Shown here: in pieces, positions 1 through 13,969 of the stretch | How positions within the stretch are numbered: position 1 is the stretch's first letter | Layout: the number at the start of each line of letters is the position of its first letter | DNA from: Ricordea florida | Taxonomy: Eukaryota > Cnidaria > Anthozoa > Corallimorpharia > Ricordeidae | Reading direction: 5' to 3' | Assembly (NCBI GenBank): GCA_949710005.1 | Contig: OX453283.1 | Span: 26,059,135 to 26,123,134, forward strand | DNA length: 64,000 bases | Program-made: the position numbers and the translations under genes | The notes under the pieces: generated by a model | The model's database searches: none | Told to the model about the DNA's origin: nothing | What the model saw: the letters and a program-made list of their open reading frames with translations, nothing else

Positions 1-2
1 AT

Positions 3-2318
3 ATTGAAGAAGAATTTAAGAAAATTTATAAGGATTGCATAAGTTATAATAAAAAAAGATTCAAAAAATTTAGTAAGAAAATGATGACAGAAGTTGATGA
101 AATAAATTATGAAAATGCTACTAACTGTCATATCTGTGAGAAAGAATTGGGCGAAGATAAGGTAATAGATCATTGTCACCTTACAGGAAAGTATAGAGGC
201 GCAGCGCATAAAGATTGCAATTTAAATTATAAGATTCCAAAATTCTTCCCAGTCATAATTCACAATCTTTCGGGGTATGATTCTCATCTATTTATTAATA
301 ATCTTGCAAAAACAGAAGGTAAAATAAAACTAATACCAAATAATGAGGAAAAGTATATTTCTTTCTCAAAAGAGATTGTGGTTGATACCTTCAAAGATAA
401 AAAAAGCGGCGAGATGAAAGATGTTATCAGGGATATCAGGTTCATAGATTCATTAAAATTTATGCCGTCCAGTCTTGATAATTTGTCCGGCAATCTTACT
501 AAATGTGGAAAGTGTGGTGTTTGTAAAGGCGAAATAAAAGGGAGGTGCCTTAATCCTACAGATAAAAACCTGCATGAAATTAAAAAGTATTTTGAAGGCG
601 AAGAATTAAAGTTATTATTGAGAAAGGGGGTTTTCCCATATGATTATCTTGATGATTTTGATAAATTAAATGAAACCCAACTCCCCCCAAAGGCGGCGTT
701 TTACTCAAAACTTAGTGATAAAGATATTTCAGAAGAAGATTATGAACATGCAAAAAAGGTATGGAAAACTTTTAATATGAAAACAATGCGAGATTACCTT
801 AATCTATATCTCAAGTCTGATGTGTTATTATTGGCCGATGTTTTTGAAAACTTTAGAGATGTTTGCCAAAATACCTATAGATTAGATCCTGCTTGGTATT
901 ATACAGCGCCGGGTTTGGCTTGGGATGCTATGTTGAAAAAAACTAAGGTTCAATTGGAGATGATAAATGACATTGATATGCTAATTATGATTGAGAAAGG
1001 TGTTAGAGGGGGCATATCCCAGATATCAAACAGATATGCTAAAGCGAATAACAAATACATGAAAGAATATGATCCTAAAATGGTAGCAAATTATATACAA
1101 TATCTAGATGCAAACAACTTATATGGCGGGGCAATGAGTGAAGCATTACCAACTCATGGTTTAAAATGGATGAGTGAAAATGAGAAAACAAATTGGAGAA
1201 ATATTCCATGTATAGTTGAGGTTGATTTAAAATATCCACGGCATCTTCATGATTTACATAGTGACTATCCGCTTGCCCCGGAAAGAATTAAGGTAAATAG
1301 GGTTGAGAAATTAATACCAAATCTAAACAATAAGAAAAATTATGTTGTTCATCATGAAACACTAAAAAAATATGAAAGTCTAGGATTAGAAGTAACAAAG
1401 ATTCATAGAGGAATTAAATTTGAAGAATCAGCATGGTTGAAACCTTACATAGATTTGAATACCGAAAAAAGGGCTAAAGCAAAGAATGATTTTGAAAAAG
1501 ATTTCTTCAAACTCATGAACAACTCTGTATTTGGGAAAACAATGGAAAATCTTAGAAAAAGGGTTGATATAAGATTGGTTACTAATGAGAAAGAAGCAAG
1601 AAAATTAATATCAAAAGCTAACTATAATCGCCGTACTATTTTTTCTGAAAATCTTATGGCCGTTCATATGAATAAAACGAATATAAAATACAACAAACCT
1701 ATTTACTTAGGAATGTGTATTTTAGATATAAGTAAAGCAATGATGTATGACTTTCATTATAATTATATTAAACCAAAATATGGTGAAAAAGCTAAATTAC
1801 TTATGACAGATACAGATAGTCTTGTATATGATATAGAAACAGAGGATTTTTATATGGATATTGCCCCAGATGTGATGGAAAGGTTTGACACTTCTAATTT
1901 TCCTGTTAACCATCGATCAGGTATTAAGACTGATAAAAACAAAAAAGTAATTGGAAAGTTTAAAGATGAGGCTGGTGGTATAATAATAACAGAATTTGTC
2001 GGTCTACGAGCCAAGCTTTACTCATACAGGATGGATGGGGGTGAAGAGATAAAAAAGGACAAGGGGGTAAAGGCATCAGTAGTAAAAAAGACAATAAGCT
2101 TTAATGATTACAAGGAATGTTTGGATAGTAAAGTAAAGCAGATGAGGGAGATGCAAGTAATAAGAAGTTACAAACATTTTGTTTATACTGAAACCGTTAA
2201 TAAAGTTGCACTATCTGCCGATGATGATAAGAGAATAATTTGTAAAGATGGAAAACATACTTTCCCATATGGTCATTATCTTACCAAAACTGAATCTGGT
2301 GGAAGTTCTGTATCATAA
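3..2318 (+). CDS. pPolB: Protein-primed family-B DNA polymerase (5' end outside window)
   Basis: This replicates the element's DNA from a protein primer. The frame is open to the window edge, so the gene starts further left; numbering here is from the first ATG at 81. A CxxC...DHCH...CN zinc-binding module (C16, C19, H31-H33, C46) precedes exonuclease motif II (NLSGYD, 62-67) and exonuclease motif III (Y243...D247). Polymerase motif A is YLDANNLYGG (341-350), motif B is NNSVFGK (about 480-486) and motif C is DTDS (576-579). The conserved near-terminal YGHY is present. Exonuclease motif I should lie upstream of the window. The last 43 bp overlap the 3' end of the convergent integrase gene. All visible catalytic residues are intact. 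Confidence 0.92.
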   Translation: MEEEFKKIYKDCISYNKKRFKKFSKKMMTEVDEINYENATNCHICEKELGEDKVIDHCHLTGKYRGAAHKDCNLNYKIPKFFPVIIHNLSGYDSHLFINNLAKTEGKIKLIPNNEEKYISFSKEIVVDTFKDKKSGEMKDVIRDIRFIDSLKFMPSSLDNLSGNLTKCGKCGVCKGEIKGRCLNPTDKNLHEIKKYFEGEELKLLLRKGVFPYDYLDDFDKLNETQLPPKAAFYSKLSDKDISEEDYEHAKKVWKTFNMKTMRDYLNLYLKSDVLLLADVFENFRDVCQNTYRLDPAWYYTAPGLAWDAMLKKTKVQLEMINDIDMLIMIEKGVRGGISQISNRYAKANNKYMKEYDPKMVANYIQYLDANNLYGGAMSEALPTHGLKWMSENEKTNWRNIPCIVEVDLKYPRHLHDLHSDYPLAPERIKVNRVEKLIPNLNNKKNYVVHHETLKKYESLGLEVTKIHRGIKFEESAWLKPYIDLNTEKRAKAKNDFEKDFFKLMNNSVFGKTMENLRKRVDIRLVTNEKEARKLISKANYNRRTIFSENLMAVHMNKTNIKYNKPIYLGMCILDISKAMMYDFHYNYIKPKYGEKAKLLMTDTDSLVYDIETEDFYMDIAPDVMERFDTSNFPVNHRSGIKTDKNKKVIGKFKDEAGGIIITEFVGLRAKLYSYRMDGGEEIKKDKGVKASVVKKTISFNDYKECLDSKVKQMREMQVIRSYKHFVYTETVNKVALSADDDKRIICKDGKHTFPYGHYLTKTESGGSSVS

Positions 2319-3311: not shown

Positions 3312-3328
3312 TATCTTATAAATCAAAT
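3312..3328. promoter_or_regulatory. Divergent promoter box shared by integrase and small plus-strand gene
   Basis: Read on the plus strand this is TATCTTATAAATC, the same box that precedes the capsid gene, and it ends at the ATG of the 63-residue gene. Read on the minus strand it is ATTTGATTTATAAG, matching the boxes upstream of the other minus-strand genes. One sequence may therefore serve both directions. The promoter role is inferred from recurrence and position only. Confidence 0.5.
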
Positions 3329-3518
3329 GGTGTCGGAAGAAGAAAAAATAAAATTTACCGAATACCAAATCAACATTATGAAAAAAATTATTAGAAAAAA
3401 AATTCTGTATATGGAAGATGGCGATCAAATTTTTAATGTTTTAATTTTAATTCCTGAGGCGAGAGAAGGTTTATTAAAACATATTTCCAAGTTAGAAAAT
3501 AGGACAACACAGGTTTAA
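3327..3518 (+). CDS. Small helical charged protein, function unknown
   Basis: A 63-residue protein, rich in Lys, Ile and Glu, predicted helical, with no cysteine and no membrane segment. I do not recognise it. It begins the plus-strand series that continues into the capsid gene 29 bp downstream. Support for its being real comes from its own TATCTTATAAAT box ending at the start codon and from the identical box in front of the next gene. Confidence 0.6.
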   Translation: MVSEEEKIKFTEYQINIMKKIIRKKILYMEDGDQIFNVLILIPEAREGLLKHISKLENRTTQV

Positions 3519-3531
3519 AGGTTAACCAAAG

Positions 3532-3543
3532 TATCTTATAAAT
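3532..3543 (+). promoter_or_regulatory. Late-type box upstream of capsid gene (TATCTTATAAAT)
   Basis: The 12-base box is identical to the one at 3312-3323 and lies 4 bases before the capsid ATG. It fits an AT-rich core-promoter signal for virion genes. Role inferred. Confidence 0.5.
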
Positions 3544-3547
3544 TACA

Positions 3548-4786
3548 ATGACGTCTGAAAAAATTAATCCAAACAGAATTCCCAAAGAGCCATTCGGTTT
3601 GAAAGCAGAATCAACATTGAATAGAATTACTCTCAACCCATCCACAGCCAGTCCAGGAGAAACATTATATATAAATATTCCAAAACTTTCTGAGAATTTG
3701 GTGATTGTGCCCGGAAGTGTATCTCTTCTATTTGATTTAGATGTTGAGGGTCATGCGAATAACACAGTTGTGAATAATGTGGGCCGTAATCTTGTAACCA
3801 GACTGAAAGTTCTTTTTGGAGGAGAAACATTGCAAGATACTCAAGGATATGATTTATTTCAAACATATCATGATTTATTCTTAACTGAAGAAGAGCGCGA
3901 AGATAGATTAAAACAAGGTATTTCTTCTCTAAATATTAGAAAACTTAGAACAAAATCTGGGGACGCAAAAACACAAGATGCAAAAGAAGTTGCTCTCGCT
4001 AATGTTCATGGTTCAAAGTATAGAATACCAATAAATCATCCTATTCTAAACGATCATGGTGTTTTTTATCCGAAAGCGTTGGAAAATCATCTTATATTTG
4101 AGATTACACTTGCACCAATTAATAATATTCTTATTTATTCTGATACAACTAAAGTACCATCATATTCAATCAAAAACTTAGAGTTAGAATATTCTTCAAT
4201 TTCTAGCGAATACTTAGCCCGCGAGGCCCAAGCAGCTTACCAAGTTGGTAAAGGATTCTTTTATGAAAATGTTACCTTGCACAAAACTTTTACATTTTCC
4301 ATTGGCGGTGATGGGGTCATTAATCAGCATATTAATTTACCGAGAAGATCAATGACAGGAATATTGTTTTTGTTTTTATTACCTCAAGCTGCAGGGGTAA
4401 GAGATTCTGAAAATTTTTATAATCCAGGCATATCTTCCGTTGAAATTGATGTTGATGGTGTGCCAAATAGAATATACTCTAGAGGAATGATTCCGTCCGA
4501 TCTTTGGGAATCCGTGAAAAAAAGATTCCAACCAACGGGAGAACAAATTTCATTGAAAGAAAAAGAATTTTACGCGGATAAGTTTGCTCTTTGGGTTGAT
4601 ACTAGAACTCATCCAGATAATGATATTCATGGCGGCGGACTTGCTCTAAATAATACGCATGATGGTGTAAAAATAGAAATTAAAAGGAAACAAGGCGGAA
4701 CTGGAATCGTAACTTGTCATATGTTTGTTGTAGCAGATGCAATGATGGAGATTATGAATTCAAGTTTGAGATCAATTAAGTACTGA
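3548..4786 (+). CDS. MCP: Probable Polinton major capsid protein (double jelly-roll)
   Basis: A 412-residue protein, beta-rich, without membrane segments or signal peptide. Its position directly before the packaging ATPase and its length match the Polinton major capsid gene. The sequence resembles the F54H12.2-like family of animal Polintons, as far as I can recall, with a conserved N-terminal VVNNVGRNLVTRL block (about residues 76-88) and a C-terminal DGVKIEIKR block. The double jelly-roll fold cannot be shown from sequence reading alone; it follows from family membership. The frame is undamaged. A structure prediction giving two tandem jelly rolls would settle it; if it failed, a different virion protein is the main alternative. 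Confidence 0.68.
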   Translation: MTSEKINPNRIPKEPFGLKAESTLNRITLNPSTASPGETLYINIPKLSENLVIVPGSVSLLFDLDVEGHANNTVVNNVGRNLVTRLKVLFGGETLQDTQGYDLFQTYHDLFLTEEEREDRLKQGISSLNIRKLRTKSGDAKTQDAKEVALANVHGSKYRIPINHPILNDHGVFYPKALENHLIFEITLAPINNILIYSDTTKVPSYSIKNLELEYSSISSEYLAREAQAAYQVGKGFFYENVTLHKTFTFSIGGDGVINQHINLPRRSMTGILFLFLLPQAAGVRDSENFYNPGISSVEIDVDGVPNRIYSRGMIPSDLWESVKKRFQPTGEQISLKEKEFYADKFALWVDTRTHPDNDIHGGGLALNNTHDGVKIEIKRKQGGTGIVTCHMFVVADAMMEIMNSSLRSIKY

Positions 4787-4797
4787 CCGAAGGGAAG

Positions 4798-4808
4798 AAT
4801 CTAAAAAC
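4798..4808 (+). promoter_or_regulatory. Late-type box AATCTAAAAAC upstream of ATPase
   Basis: The box is 8 bases before the ATPase ATG. It shares the TCTAAA core with the boxes at 6005, 8090, 9836 and 11500. An upstream ATG at 4812 is closed by a stop after two codons, so the start at 4817 is preferred. Confidence 0.5.
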
Positions 4809-4816
4809 ATAATGTT

Positions 4817-5458
4817 ATGATACAAAAAATCATGGAAGATTTACGAGATAAAATACCATTCCATTGTATTATAACAGGACCCACAAATTGCGGAAAAACA
4901 AAGTACTTAATTGAACAGCTCCGTGGACCTTTCCGGAAAGTTTTTGAATATATTGTGTTAATTTGCCCGACTTATTCTAAAAATAAAACATATCATAATT
5001 TTGCTCGAGGAGATGAACATTTTTATGTATTATCTCCAGATGCTAGTAACATTGATGAGATTAATGAGTTACTAACTGTTTGTCAAACATTATTCTCCGG
5101 CACAAATACACTAATAATTCTAGATGATTGCGCCGTATCCACTGATCTGAAGAAAAGATCTAATAAGTTTATAGATTTGGCATTTTCCGGTAGGCATCAT
5201 GGATTATCAGTTTGGGTTCTAACCCAGCAATTAACTTCAATAGCAAAGCCATTCCGAGAAAATGTTGCCTGCGTTGTTACTTTCCATAATCCATCGCAGA
5301 AAGGCATGAAAATGTTTTTCGAGGATTACGGCGGTGATTTGGATTATGAATTGGGTAAAAAGTTTATGCATCTCCTGAAAACAGAAAAATATTCTAGGTT
5401 ATGTTTGAGTTTGCGATACCCATTTAATTGCTATTTAGAGATTCCCGAAGTGATTTAA
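4817..5458 (+). CDS. ATP: Genome-packaging ATPase (A32/FtsK-HerA type)
   Basis: This 213-residue P-loop ATPase would pump DNA into capsids. Walker A is GPTNCGKT at residues 21-28 and Walker B is LIILDD at 99-104. A following SVWVLTQQ segment matches the sensor region of A32-like packaging ATPases. The length is typical for Polintons. It follows the capsid gene by 30 bp and precedes the next gene by 6 bp, consistent with a morphogenesis block. All motif residues are intact. Confidence 0.9.
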   Translation: MIQKIMEDLRDKIPFHCIITGPTNCGKTKYLIEQLRGPFRKVFEYIVLICPTYSKNKTYHNFARGDEHFYVLSPDASNIDEINELLTVCQTLFSGTNTLIILDDCAVSTDLKKRSNKFIDLAFSGRHHGLSVWVLTQQLTSIAKPFRENVACVVTFHNPSQKGMKMFFEDYGGDLDYELGKKFMHLLKTEKYSRLCLSLRYPFNCYLEIPEVI

Positions 5459-5464
5459 CAAAAG

Positions 5465-6001
5465 ATGGCGAATATTGATGATTATATTAAAGAAAATACC
5501 GGCCAACCTAATGGAGAAACGGTAAAGGATGATAATGAACTTGAAATAAAACAAGAATCACTTGCCATTCTCGCGGCCTTAGGAACAACAAAGGAATATT
5601 TGGGGGTTGAAATGAGTCTGGGTGATATAAAGAAATTATCTGCAAAAGATGTTGAAAAATATTTTAATCGTTATCAAGCGGTAATGGGTAAAAAAATTAA
5701 CGGTGGATTGGTAGATTCGTCCCTTCAATTAGTTTCAAAACTTATTTCATATTTAGTTCCAGTTGATGATATAGAATCTCTTTGCAATGATTTGAAGAAT
5801 GATGATTTGGTAAATCGTGAATTAACAAACATTGTTGGGTTATTAGCATTGAAAGCAGGAAGATTGGCAGCACTTGCTAGCGGGCTATTTCAAGTAGCTA
5901 AACACGTTAAATTCAACAAAAATCAACAATTTTCAGTAAATTCTAACAAAACTGAACAGGAAACTAAGCAGTCTACTGAAGGTGTTGATACAGTATATTA
6001 A
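5465..6001 (+). CDS. Conserved-looking Polinton protein, function unknown
   Basis: A 178-residue soluble protein with an acidic N terminus, a helical middle and a polar Gln/Asn/Thr-rich tail. A moderately hydrophobic helix near residues 118-145 (rich in Leu, Ala and Gly) could contact membrane or protein. I do not recognise a domain. It starts 6 bp after the ATPase stop with no box of its own, so it probably shares the ATPase transcript and is likely a virion or assembly component. Confidence 0.75.
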   Translation: MANIDDYIKENTGQPNGETVKDDNELEIKQESLAILAALGTTKEYLGVEMSLGDIKKLSAKDVEKYFNRYQAVMGKKINGGLVDSSLQLVSKLISYLVPVDDIESLCNDLKNDDLVNRELTNIVGLLALKAGRLAALASGLFQVAKHVKFNKNQQFSVNSNKTEQETKQSTEGVDTVY

Positions 6002-6004
6002 ACA

Positions 6005-6033
6005 GATCTAAAAACTTATTTGTTGCATCTAAA
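6005..6033 (+). promoter_or_regulatory. Two TCTAAA boxes upstream of the 142-residue gene
   Basis: GATCTAAAAAC lies at 6005-6015 and CATCTAAA at 6026-6033, the latter 5 bases before the ATG. Both carry the TCTAAA core of the plus-strand set. Which is used cannot be told from sequence. Confidence 0.45.
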
Positions 6034-6038
6034 TAACA

Positions 6039-6467
6039 ATGTCTGAACAAAATGAACAAAGCGCAGGAGGAGATGTGGAGCAAATTACAGCCGATCCCAA
6101 ACCAGATACTAAAAAGAGGGAAAAAGATCCTAAAAAAGTAGCGGCTGGTAGGAAATTAGCCGAATATAATAAAAAAGCAAAAGAAGCATTAGCTAGGGAG
6201 ATGAAACGAAACGAAAATACAGAAATAGATTATAATCAAGAAAAGTCAAACAATGAAGCGAAATCATGGCTTCCAGAGTTATCTTTTACTACTGTTTTAT
6301 CCGTTATTGGATTGGGGTTTACAGCATTTGATCTTTTTATGAGATATCGGGAAAAAGCGAGAGATGAATATTCCAATAGGATAGTTGATTTATCGCAAGT
6401 TCCGCAATTACCAAAACCCTCAAAAATTCCATTGCATTTAACCCCCAAATCTTTAGGAATGGAATAA
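6039..6467 (+). CDS. Single-pass membrane protein with basic N terminus, unknown
   Basis: A 142-residue protein. The first 65 residues are rich in Lys and Glu, then one hydrophobic segment (about 81-103) precedes a basic stop-transfer RYREKAR. The C terminus is proline-rich. I do not recognise it. Position among virion-type genes suggests a minor virion or membrane-interacting protein. Confidence 0.7.
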   Translation: MSEQNEQSAGGDVEQITADPKPDTKKREKDPKKVAAGRKLAEYNKKAKEALAREMKRNENTEIDYNQEKSNNEAKSWLPELSFTTVLSVIGLGFTAFDLFMRYREKARDEYSNRIVDLSQVPQLPKPSKIPLHLTPKSLGME

Positions 6468-6476
6468 TCTCAAAAG
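6466..6476 (+). promoter_or_regulatory. Degenerate late-type box (AATCTCAAAAG)
   Basis: A variant of AATCTAAAGAT 36 bases before the 72-residue gene. It is weaker than the others and may be fortuitous. Confidence 0.25.
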
Positions 6477-6512
6477 TCATTTAAAAGTTTCTCAATGATA
6501 CAGTAAAAAATC

Positions 6513-6731
6513 ATGTCAACTGAAAACAAACTTGTGAAAACTGTAACTGATTCTGCGGTACTTATCGGATTAGGAGCGGGGGTTGGTTATGTGGCAAAAA
6601 AGGTAATGAAAGAATCATTTTTGAGCGATCCATCCTCAAGTATTACAAATTACGCAAAATGGGTTGCTGTATTATCCGGAAGCATGTATCTTAAAACATA
6701 TTTAGAGGATCAAAAGATTTTACCAAAATAA
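6513..6731 (+). CDS. Small two-segment membrane protein, unknown
   Basis: A 72-residue protein with a glycine-rich hydrophobic stretch near residues 14-30 and a second near 48-62. No recognised domain. The next gene begins 4 bp after its stop, so the two are probably co-expressed. The small size and glycine-rich helix recall minor membrane proteins of Polintons and adenoviruses, but this is only an analogy. Confidence 0.65.
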   Translation: MSTENKLVKTVTDSAVLIGLGAGVGYVAKKVMKESFLSDPSSSITNYAKWVAVLSGSMYLKTYLEDQKILPK

Positions 6732-6735
6732 AATT

Positions 6736-7128
6736 ATGGCGACATTAGCAATGATGGCGATAGGAGCAGTATTGAACGCAACAGCATTTACCGGAGGAAA
6801 TATTCTTGCAAAATATATATCTGGACGAAATGTTGATACAGAAAAAATACGACACGATAAAGCAATGGAAAAATATCAAAGAGATTACGCAGAATATCAG
6901 GAAAAAAGACAAAAAATGCTTGATTGGGAAATGAAGAAAAAAGATGAAAAATATCAGGCATCAAAAAATATTTCTACTACAAATCAGGCTTTTGAATTGT
7001 ATGGTCAAATGCAAGAACCCAAATTTTCAGATTATTACAAACCAAGCGATGGTCAAAAGACTGGGGAAATGGTATATGTTGGAGCCGGAATGTTAGGTTT
7101 GGGTTACGCAGTAAGTAAAATATTATAA
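6736..7128 (+). CDS. Membrane-associated protein with hydrophobic ends, unknown
   Basis: A 130-residue protein with a hydrophobic N terminus (about 1-28), a charged coiled-coil-like middle rich in Lys, Tyr and Glu (about 34-80) and a glycine-rich hydrophobic C terminus (about 112-130). No recognised domain. It is the last gene of this plus-strand run and is followed by a hairpin that separates it from the convergent gene at 7185-8024. Confidence 0.68.
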   Translation: MATLAMMAIGAVLNATAFTGGNILAKYISGRNVDTEKIRHDKAMEKYQRDYAEYQEKRQKMLDWEMKKKDEKYQASKNISTTNQAFELYGQMQEPKFSDYYKPSDGQKTGEMVYVGAGMLGLGYAVSKIL

Positions 7129-7138
7129 ATTATTATGT

Positions 7139-7171
7139 TGTTATGTAACCAGTAATTTTAGTTATATAACA
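7139..7171. terminator. Hairpin between convergent genes (copy 1)
   Basis: Arms TGTTATGTAAC (7139-7149) and GTTATATAACA (7161-7171) pair over 11 bp with one G-T wobble and an 11-nt loop. It sits between the ends of convergent genes and is nearly identical to the hairpin at 12173-12205. The recurrence and position suggest transcript 3'-end formation in both directions. Giant viruses of the mimivirus group form 3' ends at hairpins; the link here is inference. Confidence 0.6.
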
Positions 7172-7184
7172 TAAGGTATTATGA

Positions 7185-8024
7185 TTAGTTGTCCACCAAA
7201 TTAAAACTCCACATTGAGCTTACAGAATCAGAATCTTCATCATAACCAATATAGGAAGAAGCAGATTCTCCGTCAGAAATAATTACTTCTTCATTATATT
7301 TTTTGCGTGGAGCTAATCTTTTAATTTCTTTTTTCGTTTCAACAAGCGCATCATAAAGTTTTACTTGTAAAGAAATACATCTACCAATAAATATTGATTC
7401 AATTTTGATTGAACACTCTGCGTAGCAACCTTTATTGATTAAATCTTTGGGGTTTATTGTTTCATTGCAATCCTCACTTCTAATATCGTAAAATTTTGTA
7501 AGAATTTCACCTTTTTTGTATGAAATTAATTTTGGATATAATGTTGGCCCTCTATCAGGAACTCTTTGCATACAAGGTTTGTTTTTACCATCTTCAATTT
7601 TTTCCATTTTCCAATATAGAGGATTTAAACCTCCCTTTGTTTTGGTGAGATCAGATCTTTTCAACTCAAATCTATCAATTTCTTCTTTATTTTCTATAAT
7701 ATGATCAATGCAACAATCTACTATTTCATCAAATTTTTCTATCCATTTTTTCTCTTCATTAGTGGGTCTATTTCCACTCCATAAACATAAGGGAAAAGAA
7801 TAAGTTGAAAAACTTTCAGAAACTCCAAATGAATACAAACGGCTAGTTGGAATAACTAATTCTCCCTTAGTTCCATCTTCATTTTTTGAAAAAATTTTAA
7901 TTCGTCTAAATTCTACTTTTGGTTTTTTATCTGGAACTTCGCCTAAAATTGGTTTAGAAAAGATCATACTTTTCTTAGGATCATAATTATTAATATCTAT
8001 TAATTGGGTATTTTCGTTCATCAT
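7185..8024 (-). CDS. DUF2738-like protein, putative viral ssDNA-binding protein
   Basis: A 279-residue soluble protein. The region from about residue 62 (SRLYSFGVSESF) to about 236, including ESIFIGRCISLQVKLYDALV, matches my recollection of DUF2738, a family of large DNA viruses thought to be an OB-fold single-stranded DNA-binding protein. The C-terminal 35 residues are acidic and Ser-rich, as in many viral SSBs. It lies on the minus strand between two virion-type blocks and has an AAAATTGATTTAAA box upstream, consistent with an early replication role. An HHpred hit to DUF2738 would confirm; without it the protein is unknown. The frame is intact. Confidence 0.52.
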   Translation of the reverse strand: MMNENTQLIDINNYDPKKSMIFSKPILGEVPDKKPKVEFRRIKIFSKNEDGTKGELVIPTSRLYSFGVSESFSTYSFPLCLWSGNRPTNEEKKWIEKFDEIVDCCIDHIIENKEEIDRFELKRSDLTKTKGGLNPLYWKMEKIEDGKNKPCMQRVPDRGPTLYPKLISYKKGEILTKFYDIRSEDCNETINPKDLINKGCYAECSIKIESIFIGRCISLQVKLYDALVETKKEIKRLAPRKKYNEEVIISDGESASSYIGYDEDSDSVSSMWSFNLVDN

Positions 8025-8053
8025 TTTAATTTCTGTATTTTATTTTCTTATTT

Positions 8054-8067
8054 TTTAAATCAATTTT
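8054..8067 (-). promoter_or_regulatory. Early-type box AAAATTGATTTAAA
   Basis: This lies on the minus strand 30 bases before the ATG of the 279-residue gene. It contains the exact AAAATTGA octamer known as the early promoter of mimivirus-type viruses and is identical over 14 bases to the box at 12769-12782. Confidence 0.6.
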
Positions 8068-8089
8068 GATTTTATTTCCGACTCTAGGT

Positions 8090-8100
8090 AATCTAAAGAT
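8090..8100 (+). promoter_or_regulatory. Late-type box AATCTAAAGAT
   Basis: It lies 22 bases before the ATG at 8123 and is identical over 11 bases to boxes at 9836 and 11500. It is back-to-back with the early-type box of the divergent gene. Confidence 0.6.
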
Positions 8101-8122
8101 TTCTTACTGATGAGTAAAAATC

Positions 8123-9094
8123 ATGGCGGAAGAAATACCAATGGAAGATTTTTCAAGAGATAATGATGATGCTGGTGAAGATGAAGATGATGATGCTAAT
8201 AATATAATTACATCCACATCTACTAGTACTTTTCAAAATCCCGCGTTTGATGATGAAGATGAAGAGCAAGAAAATTCGCCCAATGAAAAAACCTCCTTAT
8301 TAGGAAATAAACAAAAAGAATTCGAAGGAGCAGAATATGAAATAAAAAAAGTACGCCCAAAATCAAAATTAAAACGATTTGTTTCATTTTTCCAGCGTAC
8401 TAGTACTGGTATAGAATTGCCAGCAGTTAAAGGCCCATCTGACGGAATATATGTTTATACGGCTAATGATGATGATTTTAGAAGATATGATAAAAAAACA
8501 GGAAAATTAATGGAAAAACTAAAACCTGGAAAATTAAAAGACGCCTTGGGGCCAACTAGAGGAGAAATAGTTGAGCGAATCAATTTAGAAATTGCGAATA
8601 AAAAAGAAAAACAAAATGAGAGGCTAGAAAGAAAAAAAGTCCTTGATAATAAACCTAATAAAACAACAGAAGAAGAGGCAGAGATTGAAAATTTAAATGC
8701 AGAAGTTATAGAAAACGATGAAGATATAGCAAACGATGTTGCTGAAAGAGAAAGAATCCAAGAAACAATGTCTTTGAGAGAGCGAATAAAGTATATCTTC
8801 AAAAAGCACGGGTTTACAGTATTTGCAGTTTTAAGCGCAGTTGGTTTAGTAATTGGGGTTATAATTTCTAATCTTTCCAAAGGGCTATCTACCTTGGGAA
8901 GGGGTTTAGGAAATGGGTTGAAAACTATAGGTAAAAAACTGAGTGAAATATTACCAGGAATGGTCGGAGCAATAGTTAGCTTTCTTTTCAAAACAGCGGG
9001 CGAGGTTATTGGGTTTTTGGGTAAGAATGCTTGGCTTTTGATAATGGCTGTAGTTCTATATTTTGTGGAAAGTATAAAAAAGAAGAGAAAGTAA
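8123..9094 (+). CDS. Tail-anchored membrane protein with acidic N terminus and coiled coil
   Basis: A 323-residue protein. Residues 1-70 are strongly acidic and low-complexity, about 145-215 form a charged coiled coil, and the last hundred residues are hydrophobic and glycine-rich. There are membrane segments near 229-251 and 303-318, with amphipathic GLGNGLKTIGKKL between them. It ends in a basic KKKRK. I recall similar C termini in cnidarian Polinton proteins, but no function is known to me. A membrane-active virion protein is plausible. The next gene starts 38 bp after its stop. Confidence 0.75.
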   Translation: MAEEIPMEDFSRDNDDAGEDEDDDANNIITSTSTSTFQNPAFDDEDEEQENSPNEKTSLLGNKQKEFEGAEYEIKKVRPKSKLKRFVSFFQRTSTGIELPAVKGPSDGIYVYTANDDDFRRYDKKTGKLMEKLKPGKLKDALGPTRGEIVERINLEIANKKEKQNERLERKKVLDNKPNKTTEEEAEIENLNAEVIENDEDIANDVAERERIQETMSLRERIKYIFKKHGFTVFAVLSAVGLVIGVIISNLSKGLSTLGRGLGNGLKTIGKKLSEILPGMVGAIVSFLFKTAGEVIGFLGKNAWLLIMAVVLYFVESIKKKRK

Positions 9095-9096
9095 CA

Positions 9097-9107
9097 AATT
9101 TAAAGAT
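9097..9107 (+). promoter_or_regulatory. Late-type box variant AATTTAAAGAT
   Basis: It differs by one base from AATCTAAAGAT and lies 25 bases before the ATG at 9133, which supports that start over an in-frame upstream start that would overlap the preceding gene. Confidence 0.45.
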
Positions 9108-9132
9108 AACATGCCGTTCAGTAAAATACAAT

Positions 9133-9750
9133 ATGAACGAATACAATGGAATTTATCCTCAATTACCTAATAATAATTTCCAAACGCAAAGCGGAGATAA
9201 TTTGATTAATTTCAGACTACAAAAATCAAGCGAGGTATTACAAAATCTCGAGAAGGAAATTAAACATTACGAAGAAGTGAGGAAAAAATATAATAGAGCT
9301 AGAGGAATATGTACAAAAATTAGTGTTTCTGGCGGATTTATTTCAGTTCTTCTATCAGCAAGCGGATTAGGAACTTCTCTCACGGGTTTTGGTGCTGTTG
9401 TTGGCGTGCCTTTGGGTGTGGTTGGGGGCGTTTTTGGTGGTTTGTCGATTGGATTTGGTTTTGCCTCAAAAAGTCTTTCTGGTAAAGTTAGTAAACACGA
9501 ACAAACCGTTGCAATTGCAAAATCAAAATTAAACACCATTAATGATTTAGTCTCAAAAGCTTTGAAAGATAATGTTATATCCGACCAAGAATTTTCCATA
9601 ATTTTAGCAGAGTTGGAAAAGTTTCAAAAACTGAAACAAGAAATACGACAAAAATTCAGAAAAGCTTCAGAAAAAAACTTCGACATGTCTTTAATAAGGA
9701 AGAAAGTTCGAGAAGATCTATTAAAAGAATTAACCAATCCCGCTCATTAA
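9133..9750 (+). CDS. Coiled-coil protein with glycine-rich double hydrophobic segment
   Basis: A 205-residue protein from the ATG at 9133; the frame is also open upstream to 9031 but that would overlap the previous gene. A coiled coil (about 36-60) is followed by a glycine-rich hydrophobic hairpin (about 67-112) and a long second coiled coil (about 115-190). This layout resembles pore- or membrane-inserting proteins with a helical hairpin between coiled coils. I do not recognise a family. Confidence 0.7.
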   Translation: MNEYNGIYPQLPNNNFQTQSGDNLINFRLQKSSEVLQNLEKEIKHYEEVRKKYNRARGICTKISVSGGFISVLLSASGLGTSLTGFGAVVGVPLGVVGGVFGGLSIGFGFASKSLSGKVSKHEQTVAIAKSKLNTINDLVSKALKDNVISDQEFSIILAELEKFQKLKQEIRQKFRKASEKNFDMSLIRKKVREDLLKELTNPAH

Positions 9751-9835
9751 AAATTTCTTTTGAAAGAACTGATGTGGGGTGTAATTGTTTTGCGGGGGTT
9801 AGAAGAGAGGTTAATTGATTTTACATCTTATTCTT

Positions 9836-9846
9836 AATCTAAAGAT
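9836..9846 (+). promoter_or_regulatory. Late-type box AATCTAAAGAT
   Basis: An exact copy of the box at 8090 and 11500, 27 bases before the ATG at 9874. The 120-bp gap upstream holds no other gene. Confidence 0.6.
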
Positions 9847-9873
9847 CAGAAAAATTGGAAAACAAAGAATAAG

Positions 9874-11484
9874 ATGTTATTTGACGATTTCAAAAACCGA
9901 TACCCAAAAGCAAATCTTACTAAATTCAATTATGTAAACGATTTATATGGCGGATATATTGAATGGAAAGTTAATGGAACGACTGTAATGTCTAATGATG
10001 ATCCTTCTGGAAAAACATGGACTGATGATCTTCCTGATAATTTGAAAACATTATTATGGAAAGATTTGGGGGTAGAAAAAAAAGTTAAGGTAAGTTCATT
10101 TCCAAAAAGTTTAACATTTACAAAACAAACATATCCAATACCCGGGATTAAATTCGATGAATTTGCTCTTAATGTAACAAAAACGTTAACCAATCTAAAT
10201 ATATATGTTTCAGAAAAAGATAGTTTCACCGCATCAATGAAAAATGTTTTTAAAAATCAAACTGTGGGGTTTACTAGTGGAAAAGAAGCTAGAGCTTGGT
10301 TGAGCAAACCAAATATTAATCAGTGGCCACAACAATTAAACATGGCGGTTTGGTGCGCAACGTCTGGATGCGGTGTAAGTTTAAGTGATATTTTTAGTTA
10401 CCCGAAAGTTATTAGAAGTTTTTTTGTATTTCACATTTACTTTACAATAAGAAGAATATTATATGAATTGTACGTGCCATTACCCGACGAAAAAACTTTT
10501 TCCTTAAAAAATAATCCATATAACAAAAATGCTTATAATAGATTGTGCGCAGAATTTGGGTTAAGTAATAATCAAGATTTTAAAGGATGGAATAAGCCTT
10601 TAGCTGATTTTAGATTTAGGGGTGGTACAAACCATGGGGTTGGAGATGTATTCGTTGATTATGGGAAAGGATATGCAGACCCCGGAAGTGTTCCTGGGAG
10701 CGCATCTGCGCAATCAACGGGTGGTGGATACCAAAATGTCAGGATTATAAGAGGTTATGATACAGAAGCTAATATTTGGCCAAGCAGCGAAAATAAATTT
10801 TACGATGATGGGGGTAGAAAAAATAAAGGTGATTTAGTATCAATGCTTCGAAATGATCATTTTGTTGATTTTCAATATGCTTGGTTTATAGCAGAATCTG
10901 GGCATGGATTAACAAAGGCGGGATTGGGGAGAATAAATAGATCAATTGAAGCTTTTGTTTATTGTGTTTTGGGCTCACAAGTTAATACTAGAACTTCAAT
11001 TGTTAGTAAAGGGGGCGGTGGTTTTGAAACCCAACAAAATTTTATATCTTTATTCGAAAGTTCTGTGATTGAAAATGACATATCCAAATCAATTCAAAGA
11101 TATCAAACTGCGGTTCAAGAATCAAAATCTCGCCTTGATTTGGCTGTAGCTCCTGGTGTTTGGCTAATGCCTAGCAATTTAATAATAAATATAGAAAGTG
11201 TGGTTGGGTACAATAATAATCTGAAAATAGCTACAGAAGATATGAAATTTGGGGAAAATAATTCAATAAATATTGAAACAAAAAATGTTGGAATACCTAA
11301 TAGTTTAGGAACATCAAAGGTTTCATTAAATACCAATCCGCAACCAAGGAAACCTAAATTAAGCAATAACGAAAAATCAGACAATGAGGAAGAAGTTAGT
11401 AATATAGAAACATCTTCTCATCAAAATAATCTTATTGTTTTAATGCTAGCCGGAGGATTATTATCCTGGTTTTTATTTCGTTAA
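9874..11484 (+). CDS. Large tail-anchored virion-type protein, function unknown
   Basis: A 536-residue protein, mostly globular and beta/loop-rich with many Asn and Gly residues. A polar linker (about 470-515) leads to a single C-terminal hydrophobic anchor (518-536, LIVLMLAGG). Two nearby cysteines occur in a WCATSGCG motif. I do not recognise a domain and see no protease triad. It lies among virion-type genes with its own AATCTAAAGAT box, so a late structural or membrane-surface protein is likely. It is the largest unassigned gene of the element. Confidence 0.75.
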   Translation: MLFDDFKNRYPKANLTKFNYVNDLYGGYIEWKVNGTTVMSNDDPSGKTWTDDLPDNLKTLLWKDLGVEKKVKVSSFPKSLTFTKQTYPIPGIKFDEFALNVTKTLTNLNIYVSEKDSFTASMKNVFKNQTVGFTSGKEARAWLSKPNINQWPQQLNMAVWCATSGCGVSLSDIFSYPKVIRSFFVFHIYFTIRRILYELYVPLPDEKTFSLKNNPYNKNAYNRLCAEFGLSNNQDFKGWNKPLADFRFRGGTNHGVGDVFVDYGKGYADPGSVPGSASAQSTGGGYQNVRIIRGYDTEANIWPSSENKFYDDGGRKNKGDLVSMLRNDHFVDFQYAWFIAESGHGLTKAGLGRINRSIEAFVYCVLGSQVNTRTSIVSKGGGGFETQQNFISLFESSVIENDISKSIQRYQTAVQESKSRLDLAVAPGVWLMPSNLIINIESVVGYNNNLKIATEDMKFGENNSINIETKNVGIPNSLGTSKVSLNTNPQPRKPKLSNNEKSDNEEEVSNIETSSHQNNLIVLMLAGGLLSWFLFR

Positions 11485-11499
11485 TGTTTTGATTATATA

Positions 11500-11510
11500 A
11501 ATCTAAAGAT
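11500..11510 (+). promoter_or_regulatory. Late-type box AATCTAAAGAT
   Basis: An exact copy 24 bases before the ATG of the penton-like gene, and 15 bp after the stop of the preceding gene. Confidence 0.6.
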
Positions 11511-11534
11511 GAACATAATGTAATCAAAACAAAA

Positions 11535-12167
11535 ATGCTAAGTATTACAATGTATGATTCTGAAACAAGGATTTATTTAGATCCACCGCTGGAAAATCTT
11601 CGTGAGATACAGCTCCTAGATTGTAATATACAAACCAAAAGATTGATTAATTTCAAGGACGAACAGACAATATTATATGGCAAGAATCAGAGCTTCATAA
11701 TTCAACCGGGCACATATTCTCTTAGCGGCATCCAATCAATCTTTCTTAATGATCCTGGTCTGGAAAAAATAACAATAATTGAGACTGATACTATTGACTA
11801 TCTTTATTCAAATAAGAACTCCAAAGTTATAATTACGAGAGGATTGTCAATTGGTTTAGGAGTTCCTATAGTTTTAAATCCTGGTAAATTATACCCCATA
11901 AATATACAGATTAGGGAACCTTTGAGACTTATGTGTAGTATAGTGGATAATAAATCGTCATATATGAATAACACCAAATATGGAGAACTTGTGAAACTCT
12001 CACCATCGCACCTACTCGCGAACATACCCTCAAAGGATTATCCGACAATCCCGGTTCAAAAATATGAAAGTCCCATAAACCACTTTGATTTAACTATCTT
12101 AGACAATGAATGGAAAAAACTTAATTTAAGGGGATTGCCAATAACTTTTAGTTTAAGATTTAGATAA
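11535..12167 (+). CDS. Probable minor capsid / penton-like protein
   Basis: A 210-residue protein, beta-rich and lacking membrane segments. The N terminus (TMYDSETRIYLDPPLENLREIQLL is the region at about residues 5-28) and the following GTYSLSGIQ segment resemble the single jelly-roll minor capsid or penton proteins of animal Polintons as I remember them. Size fits. It is the last plus-strand gene, with its own late-type box, and ends 5 bp before a hairpin shared with the convergent cluster. A predicted single jelly roll would support the call. Confidence 0.5.
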   Translation: MLSITMYDSETRIYLDPPLENLREIQLLDCNIQTKRLINFKDEQTILYGKNQSFIIQPGTYSLSGIQSIFLNDPGLEKITIIETDTIDYLYSNKNSKVIITRGLSIGLGVPIVLNPGKLYPINIQIREPLRLMCSIVDNKSSYMNNTKYGELVKLSPSHLLANIPSKDYPTIPVQKYESPINHFDLTILDNEWKKLNLRGLPITFSLRFR

Positions 12168-12172
12168 ATTTT

Positions 12173-12205
12173 TGTTATGTAACCAAAATGAATGGTTATA
12201 TAACA
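12173..12205. terminator. Hairpin between convergent genes (copy 2)
   Basis: Arms TGTTATGTAACC (12173-12184) and GGTTATATAACA (12194-12205) pair over 12 bp with one G-T wobble and a 9-nt loop. The arms match the hairpin at 7139-7171. It separates the penton-like gene from the minus-strand accessory cluster. Confidence 0.62.
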
Positions 12206-12218
12206 TAATTATTTCTAA

Positions 12219-12743
12219 TTAATCTTCACCCCATCTTTCTTTCAAATCTCTTAATTCCTCAAAATCGATACACCAATCTAAATATCTAGATGGGTGCCAT
12301 GCTACGGCCATTAGTTCATCATATAAAGATTCATAAATATTCTCTTTATAAAATATCTTATATGGGTCAACTTCTATTTTTAAAGAAAAAGAATCATGAA
12401 TAATTTTTTTTTTCATCTCACTCCCATGCCAATATGTAAAAGTATTATCCATTGCTTTTATTAATTCTGAAACAAGCTCTTCATCAGTAAAATTTTTACA
12501 AAAACTAAAAACAAAAAAAATATTCTGTAATCCATAACAAATAGTACACCCAAAATCTTCATTTTCTTCAAAACCTCGATTTCTTACAAATATTGTTCTT
12601 TTTTCACTCATAAAAAACCTATATTTTGGGATGTCTTCCATTAAATATTCCTTTAATACAGTAATAAAAGTATATATATCTAATCTTTCTTCATTAATAT
12701 ATTCAATAGTAATATTTTCTTCTTCTGCATCTTTTCTATCCAT
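12219..12743 (-). CDS. Accessory protein with C-terminal WCIDFEEL motif (paralogue A)
   Basis: A 174-residue soluble protein. The last 26 residues include WHPSRYLDWCIDFEELRDLK, nearly the same as in the gene at 13194-13772, and the preceding 40 residues also align, so the two are paralogues. Their N-terminal halves have diverged. The AxHPxRxxxWCxD-type ending recalls C-terminal motifs of accessory proteins in giant viruses; function is unknown. It is the last of three co-oriented genes and has an exact AAAATTGATTTAAA box overlapping the stop of the gene upstream. Confidence 0.72.
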   Translation of the reverse strand: MDRKDAEEENITIEYINEERLDIYTFITVLKEYLMEDIPKYRFFMSEKRTIFVRNRGFEENEDFGCTICYGLQNIFFVFSFCKNFTDEELVSELIKAMDNTFTYWHGSEMKKKIIHDSFSLKIEVDPYKIFYKENIYESLYDELMAVAWHPSRYLDWCIDFEELRDLKERWGED

Positions 12744-12768
12744 TTTATTTTTATTTTATATTTTTTTC

Positions 12769-12782
12769 TTTAAATCAATTTT
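12769..12782 (-). promoter_or_regulatory. Early-type box AAAATTGATTTAAA
   Basis: It lies 25 bases before the ATG at 12743 and is identical to the box at 8054-8067. The TGA inside it is the stop codon of the upstream gene, so the promoter and gene end are fused. Confidence 0.6.
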
Positions 12783-13164
12783 TACTTTTTCTACATTCTT
12801 TACAAGAAGCTTTTTGTTTGCCATGTTCGCATATTTGTTTTCCTCCACATTCTTTACATTGTTGTTTTTGTTTATTGTGTTCGCATATTTGAGATCCTCC
12901 ACATTCCTTACATCGATATTTATATTTATTATGCATACAATTATGTCCATTACATTCACTACAAAATTTTTTATTTTTTTCATGATCACAAATAATTCTG
13001 CTAATAGAAATAACTTTTTCAATTAAATGAGTAATTTCCTCATCTTTGAAATTTTTAATCTCGCTAATTAGCTCTTTTTTACTCATTTTTGCTCTTCCTT
13101 TGATTTCTAGATCTTTCGCTATTATTTTTAGTTCATAAGTATATAAATCTCTTAATTTATCCAT
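12775..13164 (-). CDS. SAP-like plus Cys/His repeat zinc protein
   Basis: A 129-residue protein. The first 40 residues (LRDLYTYELKIIAKDL region) look like a SAP/Rho-N helix-extended-loop-helix fold that could bind nucleic acid. From about residue 57 there are four or five short repeats of the pattern C-x-H-x6-8-C-x2-C-x-G (for example ICEHNKQKQQCKECGG), which should bind zinc. Such repeats are familiar from giant viruses and protists. It lies between the two WCIDFEEL paralogues and shares their orientation. A DNA- or RNA-binding regulatory role is inference. Confidence 0.72.
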   Translation of the reverse strand: MDKLRDLYTYELKIIAKDLEIKGRAKMSKKELISEIKNFKDEEITHLIEKVISISRIICDHEKNKKFCSECNGHNCMHNKYKYRCKECGGSQICEHNKQKQQCKECGGKQICEHGKQKASCKECRKSKN

Positions 13165-13193
13165 AACTAATCTTTTATGTATATTACCTATCC

Positions 13194-13207
13194 TTATAAA
13201 TCAATAC
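13194..13207 (-). promoter_or_regulatory. Early-type box variant (GTATTGATTTATAA)
   Basis: It lies 30 bases before the ATG at 13164 and shares the ATTGATTTA core. It overlaps the stop codon of the upstream gene, as the box at 12769 does. Confidence 0.45.
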
Positions 13208-13772
13208 CCCATCTTTTTTTCAAATCTCTCAACTCTTCAAAATCAATACACCAATCTAAAACTCTAATGGGATTCCATGCTACTTCCATTAAATCATTAT
13301 GCAAATCATTATAAAATTTCTTTTTGTGTAATACCTTATGTACATCTTTGTATAATGTGATTTTAATTGAATCAATAATAAAATCATTCATACTATTTGC
13401 ATAATAATAATCATCATCATCATTATAAATGTCCATAAAATATTTTTGTTTTTGATATCTTTCATAACTAGCATTTGCATTATCTATTAATAACTCAGAA
13501 ATTTCATCAAATAATATAACCCCCTCATCAAAATCTATTTCATCATCTTCCCAATAATAGATAAACTTTTCGCCGTCGTTCTTACCAAAATATATAATTT
13601 TAATATCGACCAGACTATCTTTATCTAAAAAACCATAATTTTTTGATATTACTTTTAACAAATCCTTATTCATTGAATCAATGAAATCACCAATTTCCAA
13701 TTCTTTTTCATTAAAATACTTAAATTTAAGTATACCATTTTCAATAAATTCTTGAATTGTTAAACCTTCCAT
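13194..13772 (-). CDS. Accessory protein with C-terminal WCIDFEEL motif (paralogue B)
   Basis: A 192-residue acidic protein, paralogous to the gene at 12219-12743 through its C-terminal 65 residues (WNPIRVLDWCIDFEEL and the preceding helix). The N-terminal two thirds differ and contain an Asp/Tyr-rich stretch near residue 120. It has no recognised catalytic domain. It is the first gene of the minus-strand cluster and the closest to the element's end, where accessory genes are often gained. Confidence 0.72.
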   Translation of the reverse strand: MEGLTIQEFIENGILKFKYFNEKELEIGDFIDSMNKDLLKVISKNYGFLDKDSLVDIKIIYFGKNDGEKFIYYWEDDEIDFDEGVILFDEISELLIDNANASYERYQKQKYFMDIYNDDDDYYYANSMNDFIIDSIKITLYKDVHKVLHKKKFYNDLHNDLMEVAWNPIRVLDWCIDFEELRDLKKRWGIDL

Positions 13773-13804
13773 TTCTTTCTAATCCTTTAGCATATTTTTT
13801 TTTG

Positions 13805-13818
13805 ATAAAATCAATTTT
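13805..13818 (-). promoter_or_regulatory. Early-type box AAAATTGATTTTAT
   Basis: It carries the AAAATTGA octamer 32 bases before the ATG at 13772. Related ATTGATTTAAGG sequence recurs at 13873-13885. Confidence 0.55.
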
Positions 13819-13969
13819 TTGAAATCTTTACCCCTCACCTATTCTTGAAATATTCATTTACATCACCCATCCTTAAATCAATTCTTGAAATATCCAGTAA
13901 CCTAAAAATGACTGGGGGACCCCCACTTAACCTAAAAACCAACTTATAAATTGGCCCATATAGTAGTCC
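13819..13969. other. Right terminal region of the Polinton
   Basis: No gene. Three related copies of a TTGAAAT(A/C)T motif preceded by CAATT or TATTC occur at about 13811, 13841 and 13881. A short palindrome, TGGGGGACCCCCA, lies at about 13913-13925. Any terminal inverted repeat and target duplication cannot be confirmed without the left end. The satellite begins at 13970. Confidence 0.45.

Follow-up and report, generated by a model that had tools for sequence, protein, structure and literature searches.

Two classes of upstream sequence box that probably follow gene function in a Polinton lineage of Ricordea florida

Polintons are regarded as endogenous viruses; in animals, to our knowledge, there have been few observations of their virions or expression programmes. 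The TATT-type late promoters of herpesviruses are read by a viral TBP-like factor. In the closest described systems, the late promoter of mavirus and EMALE type 4 is a TCTA motif in AT-rich flanks, common to CroV (excerpts of PMC8547959), the early promoter of mimivirus is AAAATTGA (excerpts of PMC11464507, PMC11998528), and poxviruses and yeast VLEs encode their own RNA polymerase (excerpts of PMC6211774). For animal Polintons, full-text literature searches returned no report of promoter classes as judged from titles and the beginnings of abstracts, and the word "promoter" is absent from the retrieved parts of PMC10120064 and PMC12220804.

The window analyzed here, a stretch of 64,000 nt of R. 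florida DNA, contains an element that shares several features with Maverick/Polinton (adintovirus-like) elements: an rve integrase (PF00665, E 2.4e-9) and an A32-type packaging ATPase (PF04665, E 6.5e-12), both above the Pfam cut-off, a capsid gene with a weak Capsid_N match (E 0.0068, at 16.4 bits below the cut-off of 24), a long polymerase-like gene, and compact genes in single open frames. In contrast to the described elements, it carries two classes of upstream signal (Table 1). The putative gene classes rest on Pfam for the integrase and ATPase, and weakly so for the capsid. We take the long open reading frame to be polymerase-like from its position, its length and the usual Polinton gene order; its scanned 3' part matches Endonuclease_7 and no DNA-polymerase model. 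The 210-aa product of 11535-12167 is called penton-like from its position only, and DUF2738 might, at a guess, be a replication protein. No PDB relative of DUF2738 was found at E up to 1, and the predicted structures were too poor to use (mean pLDDT 30.5 for DUF2738 and 48.1 for the 210-aa protein). Candidate terminal repeats are stretches of 58-88 bases, 84-90% matching and in both orientations, between window positions 13601-14400 and piece L009. Integrase copies in the genome are close (40 large matches, 89-100% DNA identity), and IMG/VR searches with the capsid, DUF2738, ATPase and polymerase piece yielded no confirmed relative.

Table 1. Candidate early and late boxes and associated features (positions in the window unless stated otherwise).
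Feature	Position	Strand	Remark
Polymerase-like gene, 3' part	1..2318	+	start at L009:1230, 1.9 kb before window
Early box AAAATGATTTT of polymerase-like gene	L009:1173-1183		outside window
TATCTTATAAAT between divergent integrase and orf63	3312..3323	.	overlaps integrase early box on opposite strand
Early box of integrase (2276-3295)	3319..3329	-	
TTTAAAGGT, box-like, of major capsid gene (3548-4786)	3514..3522	+	late position (-34)
TATCTTATAAAT before major capsid gene	3532..3543	+	at place of second late element
Late-type box of A32-type packaging ATPase (4817-5458)	4798..4808	+	nearer ATG than elsewhere
Two TCTAAA boxes of g142 (6039-6467)	6005..6033	+	TCTAAA at 6007/6028
Early box AAATTGATTTA of DUF2738 gene (7185-8024)	8056..8066	-	
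Bipartite late module of g323: TCTAAAGAT box, ACTGATG, AGTAAAA	8092..8119	+	ATG at 8123
Late box variant AATTTAAAGAT of g205 (9133-9750)	9097..9107	+	TCTAAAGAT instead in L012, L022, L024
Late box AATCTAAAGAT of g536 (9874-11484)	9836..9846	+	
Late box AATCTAAAGAT of 210-aa gene (11535-12167)	11500..11510	+	
Early box of g174 (12219-12743)	12771..12781	-	
Early box of SAP/Rho_N-like gene (12775-13164)	13197..13207	-	
Early box AAATTGATTTT of g192 (13194-13772)	13807..13817	-	

The individual sites of the original prediction were recovered: AATCTAAAGAT at 8090, 9836 and 11500 with a one-base variant at 9097, TCTAAA at 4800 and 6007/6028 (noted at 4798 and 6005), TATCTTATAAAT before two genes at 3312 and 3532, and the identical 14-mer AAAATTGATTTAAA on the minus strand at 8054 and 12769. 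A box near every minus-strand start, as had been claimed, holds in the exact form WTTGATTTA for four of the five genes; the fifth gene, g192, starts at 13772 and carries ATTGATTTT at -45, with an exact WTTGATTTA copy about 100 bases upstream of the start, at 13874.

Counts over the whole window are too weak to serve as evidence, and it is position that counts. With up to one mismatch, AATCTAAAGAT occurs 7 times (2.6 expected; 1/100 shuffles reach 7) and TATCTTATAAAT 3 times (0.9 expected; 5/100 reach 3), WTTGATTTA is found 7 times (4.5 expected; 20/100 reach 7) and TCTAAA 70 times (63 expected; 16/100 reach 70). Position was assessed in the 60-base upstream regions of 11 late (capsid-side) and 6 early (replication-side) window genes, against 500 shuffles of these regions. 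TCTAAA precedes 5/11 late genes (shuffle mean 0.61) and TGATTT precedes 6/6 early genes (mean 0.49), values reached by 0/500 shuffles each. TGATTT is also present in 3/11 late regions (8/500 shuffles reach 3), WTTGATTTA in 4/6 early and 0/11 late regions, and exact AAAATTGA before 3/6 early starts (2/500 reach 3). We regard the positional evidence for both boxes as strong and take the two box classes to be real.

In other copies of the element the late signal is bipartite, with TYTAAAGAT followed 21-22 bases on by AGTAAAA and then by the ATG. This looser module pattern fits 54 of 61 pieces, with 30-37 bases from box to ATG, and 7/61 fall outside it. Box and AGTAAAA are 21 or 22 bases apart in 54/54 fitting pieces, where the pattern permitted 20-27. 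In 37/54 the module contains an out-of-frame ATG, which favours a start downstream of the module (in frame in 11, none in 6). The box itself lies at about -31 to -36, with the ATPase as an exception at -17, and its C is replaced by T in 8/36 modules. In g323, as in copies of g72 and g205, the second element AGTAAAA precedes the ATG by some 11-12 bases. The best box of g536 is at -36 in 17/17 copies, despite protein identity down to 59% and differing flanks, and the box-like sequence at the late position of the major capsid gene (TTTAAAGGT in the window) scores barely above the 95% line in 8/8 copies. The bipartite nature of the signal, with TYTAAAGAT as the first half of a fixed module, had been missed in the earlier description.

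In wider, deduplicated upstream sets (44 early regions of 86, 31 of which are DUF2738, and 27 late regions of 109, excluding g178 and g130), TYTAAAGAT is present in 13/27 late regions (shuffle mean 0.12, max 2). It also occurs in 8/44 early regions, so that the two classes have part of a core in common. TCTA alone is found in 15/27 late regions (8.8 expected, max 14) and in 5/44 early regions (4.9 expected). The late module, 28 bases long, lies opposite 36/40 DUF2738 starts with at most 7 mismatches (best of 800 shuffles, 9), and a 37th start (L050) has the module with a small insertion. In L039, L043 and L052 the DNA upstream of DUF2738 looks, on inspection by eye, like the end of a same-strand g130-like gene; the late module is missing from 3/3 of these pieces, and 2/3 show a TGA box that is loose and A-rich. 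Genome-wide, the strict late module has 1,487 exact matches and its reversed control 0. Of the sampled sites, 20/20 had an open reading frame start at a distance of 31-34 bases from the box, the start being whichever ATG within 25 bases of the module opened the longest frame; by tblastn 9/20 were g323 (3), g205 (2) and g72 (4), i.e., Polinton genes, and the other 11, one of which stops at 15 aa, gave no tblastn match and have a g323-like acidic start by eye.

The early box is a looser signal than the late box. It is AT-rich, sits about 34-58 bases before the ATG and takes the form AAANTGAWTTW, present in 23/44 early regions of the wider set, against a shuffle mean of 0.9 and a maximum of 4, and in none of the 27 late regions; the core ANTGAWTT is in 26/44 early regions. 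Neither exact AAAATTGA (10/44 early regions; shuffle max 7) nor the Onecut-like host site, with its ATTGAYT core (10/44; 1.0 expected), is the general early signal. The proposed mimivirus parallel is weakened, and the common NTGAWTT core fits the UCEs of poxviruses and VLEs at least equally. With these the early box shares an AT-rich element in which TGA follows four A and one free base, and their motif criterion AAAANTGA is found here in 25/44 early regions (shuffle mean 5.9, max 15) and 0/27 late regions.

Not all genes contribute equally. When one gene at a time was left out, the fractions above 95% of their own shuffles for the early signal were INT 0/7, SAP129 1/6, g192 3/10 and DUF2738 27/52, and for the late signal g178 1/15, g72 2/17, g130 2/9 and ATPase 5/9, whereas MCP (8/8) and orf63 (7/7) barely passed, with median p 0.041 and 0.049; near-identical copies within these counts are non-independent. 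In lineage B, a second Polinton lineage of the same genome, neither box was found at the integrase/MCP promoter (0/11), which makes the signal code a lineage trait.

The original prediction had divided an early and a late programme by strand. The early-type box on the plus-strand polymerase-like gene rules out this division, and in this Polinton lineage the promoter classes probably follow gene function instead, in a lineage-specific two-class architecture. The pattern is enriched and tightly spaced, is reused before three different genes, and persists while flanks and neighbouring proteins diverge. From this we infer that the boxes are promoters and the classes early and late in time. Replication-side genes (polymerase-like, integrase, DUF2738 and small right-end genes), which carry the AAANTGAWTTW-type box, would most likely be read first. 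Capsid-side genes, with their TYTAAAGAT-like late box, would follow once replication has taken place: a specificity factor, borne by the element or supplied by a helper, would recognize TYTAAAGAT and recruit a polymerase starting about 20 bases downstream; transcription would then begin near AGTAAAA, leaving short leaders. Of the proposed programme, two promoter-like classes are supported that are kept in many copies and divide the genes in a virus-like way, and they suggest that an early and late programme of viral type is still at work in the element. If so, a promoter code at more than 1,000 places of one animal genome would predict where transcription starts, when genes are expressed and where they begin and end, and ordinary RNA data could address whether a viral cycle still operates in animal Polintons and which polymerase serves it.

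Our probability applies to the two-class architecture; which polymerase reads it is disputed, and the readings with host Pol II signals and with a giant virus are each partly compatible with it. In contrast to poxviruses and yeast VLEs, in which a viral RNA polymerase reads the UCE and starts about 11-12 bases after it, none of the 17 window proteins scanned matched an RNA polymerase, which makes host Pol II with a lineage-specific factor the default reader and a helper virus polymerase the main alternative. As at the late promoters of herpesviruses, a late box that resembles TATA in a non-canonical form would call for a dedicated factor; no such factor was identified here.

It is unlikely that the boxes are ordinary host Pol II signals, with TYTAAAGAT as a TATA-box variant and ATTGATTTA as a host factor site, presumably of the Onecut/HNF6 or PBX type. 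A lineage-B ATPase start does have TATAAAG-N13-GAGTAA at like spacing (L211, one copy), and the ATTGAYT core exceeds expectation in early regions. However, the usual distance from TATA to start is about 30, which with 30-37 bases from box to ATG would leave the mRNA with almost no leader, ANTGAWTT and not ATTGAYT is the early core, and the sampled module sites accompany Polinton-type open reading frames.

The boxes may have come from a giant virus or be read by one. Their mimicry of promoters of the mimivirus/CroV type, with the Polinton travelling as a passenger in the manner of a virophage and being expressed in the giant virus's factory, is in our view unlikely. It would be in line with the AT-rich, UCE-like early box, the short predicted leaders, and the Pox_VLTF3-like remnants in the genome, one of them inside a broken Polinton-like region; in the available excerpts, virophages have promoters in common with their giant viruses (PMC8547959, PMC6428243) and motifs differ among EMALE lineages, as they do here between lineages A and B. 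Against it, the strict late module is in no IMG/VR contig, exact AAAATTGA is confined to the minority of early regions given above, and the genome has no Capsid_NCLDV match, though the search controls were also silent. The looser late box has at least 120 IMG/VR stretches, with one match each among the 80 listed, and is not informative. VLTF3 as late factor of the window lineage was rejected, as tblastn with three VLTF3-like pieces gave no match in the window, L002-L008 or L010-L025. The proposed TCTA parallel to CroV and Mavirus is weakened. Most late modules contain TCTA, and, judging from the excerpts of PMC8547959, one motif for many genes and lineage-specific motifs are likewise shared with mavirus and EMALE type 4. 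In contrast to the TCTA motif described there, T often takes the place of C here, the core TYTAAAGAT lies at about -33, and some genes have a second element at fixed spacing; mavirus also has a giant-virus partner with the same motif, and none was identified here. That the lineage is, or recently was, expressed by a non-host NCLDV-type transcription system, with boxes of giant-virus/poxvirus type and VLTF3-type late factors in some members, appears quite unlikely; if true, these Polintons would be animal counterparts of virophages.

RNA-level signals (trans-splice acceptors or translation leaders) in place of promoters would suit the tight spacing to the ATG and gene gaps of a few bases (5458/5465, 6731/6736), which make polycistronic RNA possible. 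They are nevertheless very unlikely, as the g323/DUF2738 box lies in a divergent intergenic region with no same-strand gene directly upstream, and the ATPase and g142 boxes (TCTAAAAAC) lack the AG required of a trans-splice acceptor, a reading we rejected. Shared ancestry only, with recent copies retaining functionless upstream DNA, would fit the closeness of the integrase copies but is scarcely credible, since the module is near-identical before three genes and opposite the DUF2738 of many lineages, despite diverging flanks and proteins.

The two classes of promoter-like signal in this Polinton are real and conserved, and the split between them is one of gene function. Most of the element occupies bases 1 to ~13,900 of the window (G000:C12:26059135-26123134 in the searched genome of 538 Mb and 48 contigs). 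Among the window proteins, Pfam models matched for an rve integrase (E 2.4e-9), a Pox_A32-type ATPase (E 6.5e-12) and DUF2738 (E 6.2e-53), with a weak capsid match below the cut-off (E 0.0068). A long polymerase-like gene begins 1.9 kb upstream of the window, in L009, a piece of the same genome that holds its upstream part (plus-strand ATG at L009:1230); because no DNA-polymerase model in Pfam matched the part scanned, its name is one that we take from the usual gene order of Polintons. Directly after the element, from ~14.3 kb, a long repeat array with 2,032-base spacing extends through 14356-24000 and beyond and holds inverted copies of ~360 bases. An uninterrupted 991-aa frame is found on the plus strand at 51721-54696. 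Elsewhere in the genome, the GFP family gives 61 exon-sized matches on G000:C11, C4 and C15, mostly on one contig, and none in 14 control genomes. The host is on this evidence very probably an animal, and the matches would suit a cnidarian or a cephalochordate.

Genes were named early (n = 6: integrase, DUF2738, three small right-end genes and the polymerase-like gene) or late (n = 11: the capsid gene and ten others on its side) from gene content rather than timing. In the 60 bases before their starts, TCTAAA occurs in 5/11 late and 0/6 early regions, TGATTT in 6/6 early and 3/11 late, and AAANTGATTT in 4/6 early and 0/11 late. The upstream enrichment over shuffled DNA that the original prediction hinged on is thus present: in its proper class, each motif was matched by none of 500 shuffles of the same sequences. 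The value for TGATTT in late regions was itself reached by just 8 of 500, and counts across the entire window are unimpressive. The individual box sites first quoted are all present; the one correction is that exact WTTGATTTA lies near just four of the five minus-strand starts.

The proposed division by strand does not hold. The polymerase-like gene shares the plus strand with the capsid genes, yet it carries AAAATGATTTT at -57. In three DUF2738 pieces (L039, L043 and L052) the upstream DNA looks, by eye, like the end of a same-strand gene resembling g130 (g-numbers denote predicted Polinton genes); the late module is absent from all three, and loose A-rich TGA boxes are present in two. On these few cases, therefore, box class follows the gene rather than the strand.

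The element is abundant in the genome, with at least 40 large integrase matches (89-100% DNA identity), 150 scored places for DUF2738 and 101 for the capsid protein (95-100% identity; 100 of them stop-free). For comparison we used sixteen pieces of ~9.9 kb, together with forty shorter ones (up to ~0.5 kb) from the starts of DUF2738 genes; counts leave out copies whose aligned start missed the ATG (e.g., 8/17 ATPase rows and 2/17 g178 rows), and the eight ATPase rows nonetheless have TCTAAA. The late box keeps its position amid changing surroundings: the best box of g536 is at -36 in 17/17 copies, and the GC-rich inserts that some copies of the ATPase and of g205 contain end short of it. For g205, TCTAAAGAT is found in three copies with 65-81% identical proteins and, at the same place, TTTAAAGAT or TTTAAAGAC in the 14 others.

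In 44 deduplicated early regions, of which 31 are DUF2738 regions, AAANTGAWTTW occurs in 23 (shuffle mean 0.9, maximum 4), AAAANTGA in 25 (mean 5.9, maximum 15) and the exact mimivirus early form AAAATTGA in 10 (mean 2.2, maximum 7); each is found in 0/27 late regions. TYTAAAGAT occurs in 13/27 late and also in 8/44 early regions, where it is often the 3' end of TGATTTAAAGAT; the two classes therefore share part of a core. Scored with one gene left out at a time, the outcome was mixed across genes (see table).

Leave-one-gene-out scores of the promoter classes (copies exceeding 95% of their own shuffles), with window coordinates of genes
Gene	Class	Copies over 95%	Window position	Remark
g205	late	17/17		
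g142	late	17/17		
g536	late	16/17		
penton-like	late	14/14	11535-12167	210 aa, named from position
MCP	late	8/8		barely
orf63	late	7/7		barely
ATPase	late	5/9		
g323	late	3/3		opposite DUF2738
g72	late	2/17		
g130	late	2/9		
g178	late	1/15		
POL	early	9/10		polymerase-like
DUF2738	early	27/52	7185-8024	
g192	early	3/10		
g174	early	1/1		
SAP129	early	1/6		SAP/Rho_N-like, right end
INT	early	0/7		

A longer late module, from the box to the end of AGTAAAA, lies opposite DUF2738 and before some g72 and g205 copies. Its 28 bases are found with at most 7 mismatches in 36/40 DUF2738 pieces, 27 of them with 0 or 1. Of the remaining four, three are without the module and one carries it with a short insertion. 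Among 800 shuffles, the closest came to 9 mismatches. Genome-wide, the strict form of the module was counted at 1,487 places, against 0 for its reversed control. Twenty strict sites were sampled among the matches listed, all on contig C1, and in 20/20 an ATG, chosen as the one with the longest frame, opens an ORF 31-34 bases from the box start. By tblastn, four of these ORFs match g72, two g205 and three g323; the other 11/20 were without a match and by eye have a g323-like acidic beginning, one stopping at 15 aa. No evident host gene followed the module in this small sample (20 of 1,487).

In a set of 61 pieces, made up of the 40 DUF2738 pieces, the window and the 20 samples chosen for the strict module, a looser form fits 54 and not the other seven. 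The distance from box to AGTAAAA is 21 bases in 47 of the fitting pieces and 22 in seven (20-27 being allowed), and the next ATG is 11 or 12 bases past the AGTAAAA start in 43/54. An ATG also lies inside the module in 48/54; in 37 of these its frame differs from that of the gene, and in 11 the two agree. We infer that transcription would start near AGTAAAA, because an upstream start would usually mis-start translation at this internal ATG.

As described in PMC6211774, the poxvirus early UCE is an AT-rich element in which position 5 may be any base and TGA follows, and the yeast VLE box is its relative; the Polinton early box fits the UCE form. The mavirus-type motif is TCTA in AT-rich flanks, and EMALE types differ in the motif they carry (PMC8547959). 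TCTA is present within most Polinton late-module copies, but the Polinton late box is longer, permits T for C and has a second element in some genes. The strict module was found in 0 IMG/VR contigs. Among the papers listed by literature searches that covered few subscription papers, none announced promoter classes of animal Polintons in its title or the opening of its abstract.

The two-class signals may be connected to a giant virus. Pox_VLTF3 gave four genome matches above the cut-off, two with stops. One, at L208:3940-4284 (-), is the remnant of a VLTF3-like gene. The surrounding region is Polinton-like but divergent and broken; a capsid fragment with 59% identity to the window capsid lies ~3.5 kb away, and L210 adds an integrase. 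Between remnant and capsid fragment sits a DUF4371 match, which we take to be of transposon type. The remnant may represent a late transcription factor carried by the Polinton, or may lie beside it by chance. The matches in L206 and L207 have stops and that in L209 lies in an open 142-aa frame; no window-type Polinton genes were found in the 8 kb examined at these three, which are possible endogenous giant-virus remnants. In other cnidarians, NCLDV-like genes are reported from Hydra, and a VLTF3 from Exaiptasia (PMC5294986). Capsid_NCLDV had 0 matches in the genome, a search that does not show absence because nothing matched anywhere, controls included.

A search with 172 aa of an integrase that shares 72% identity with that of the window revealed a more distant Polinton lineage, B, which is large (150 scored places, most stop-free in the matched piece). 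Its integrase/capsid intergenic region has TYTAAAGAT, TYTAAAG or ANTGAWTT in 0/11 copies, so the promoter code is lineage-specific, which counts against one common reader for all Polintons in the host. TTATAAA is present there in 8/11 copies. In L211, one lineage-B copy, TATAAAG precedes the start of the ATPase gene, itself split by inserted DNA, with GAGTAA at similar spacing.

Several minor features of the window-type copies were also seen. Short, similar GC-rich stretches lie between genes upstream of the ATPase (L017, L020, L022, L025) and of g205 (L012), and at the g178 start (L021, L025), and are missing from the remaining copies. Between the window and L010-L025, strongly different alleles occur for DUF2738 (to ~55% identity) and the 210-aa penton-like gene (to ~61%). 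The capsid proteins of these elements are, as far as seen, at least 95% identical, and the combination suggests gene swapping between elements. The SAP-like early gene has a 54-base tandem repeat of two copies in its Cys/His-rich part (window 12824-12930). In nine copies (L011-L015, L017, L019, L022 and L024), the DNA upstream of the SAP-like right-end match closely resembles that upstream of the polymerase-like gene, as if each end of the element had, in its inverted repeat, the promoter of the polymerase together with the SAP domain of that gene.
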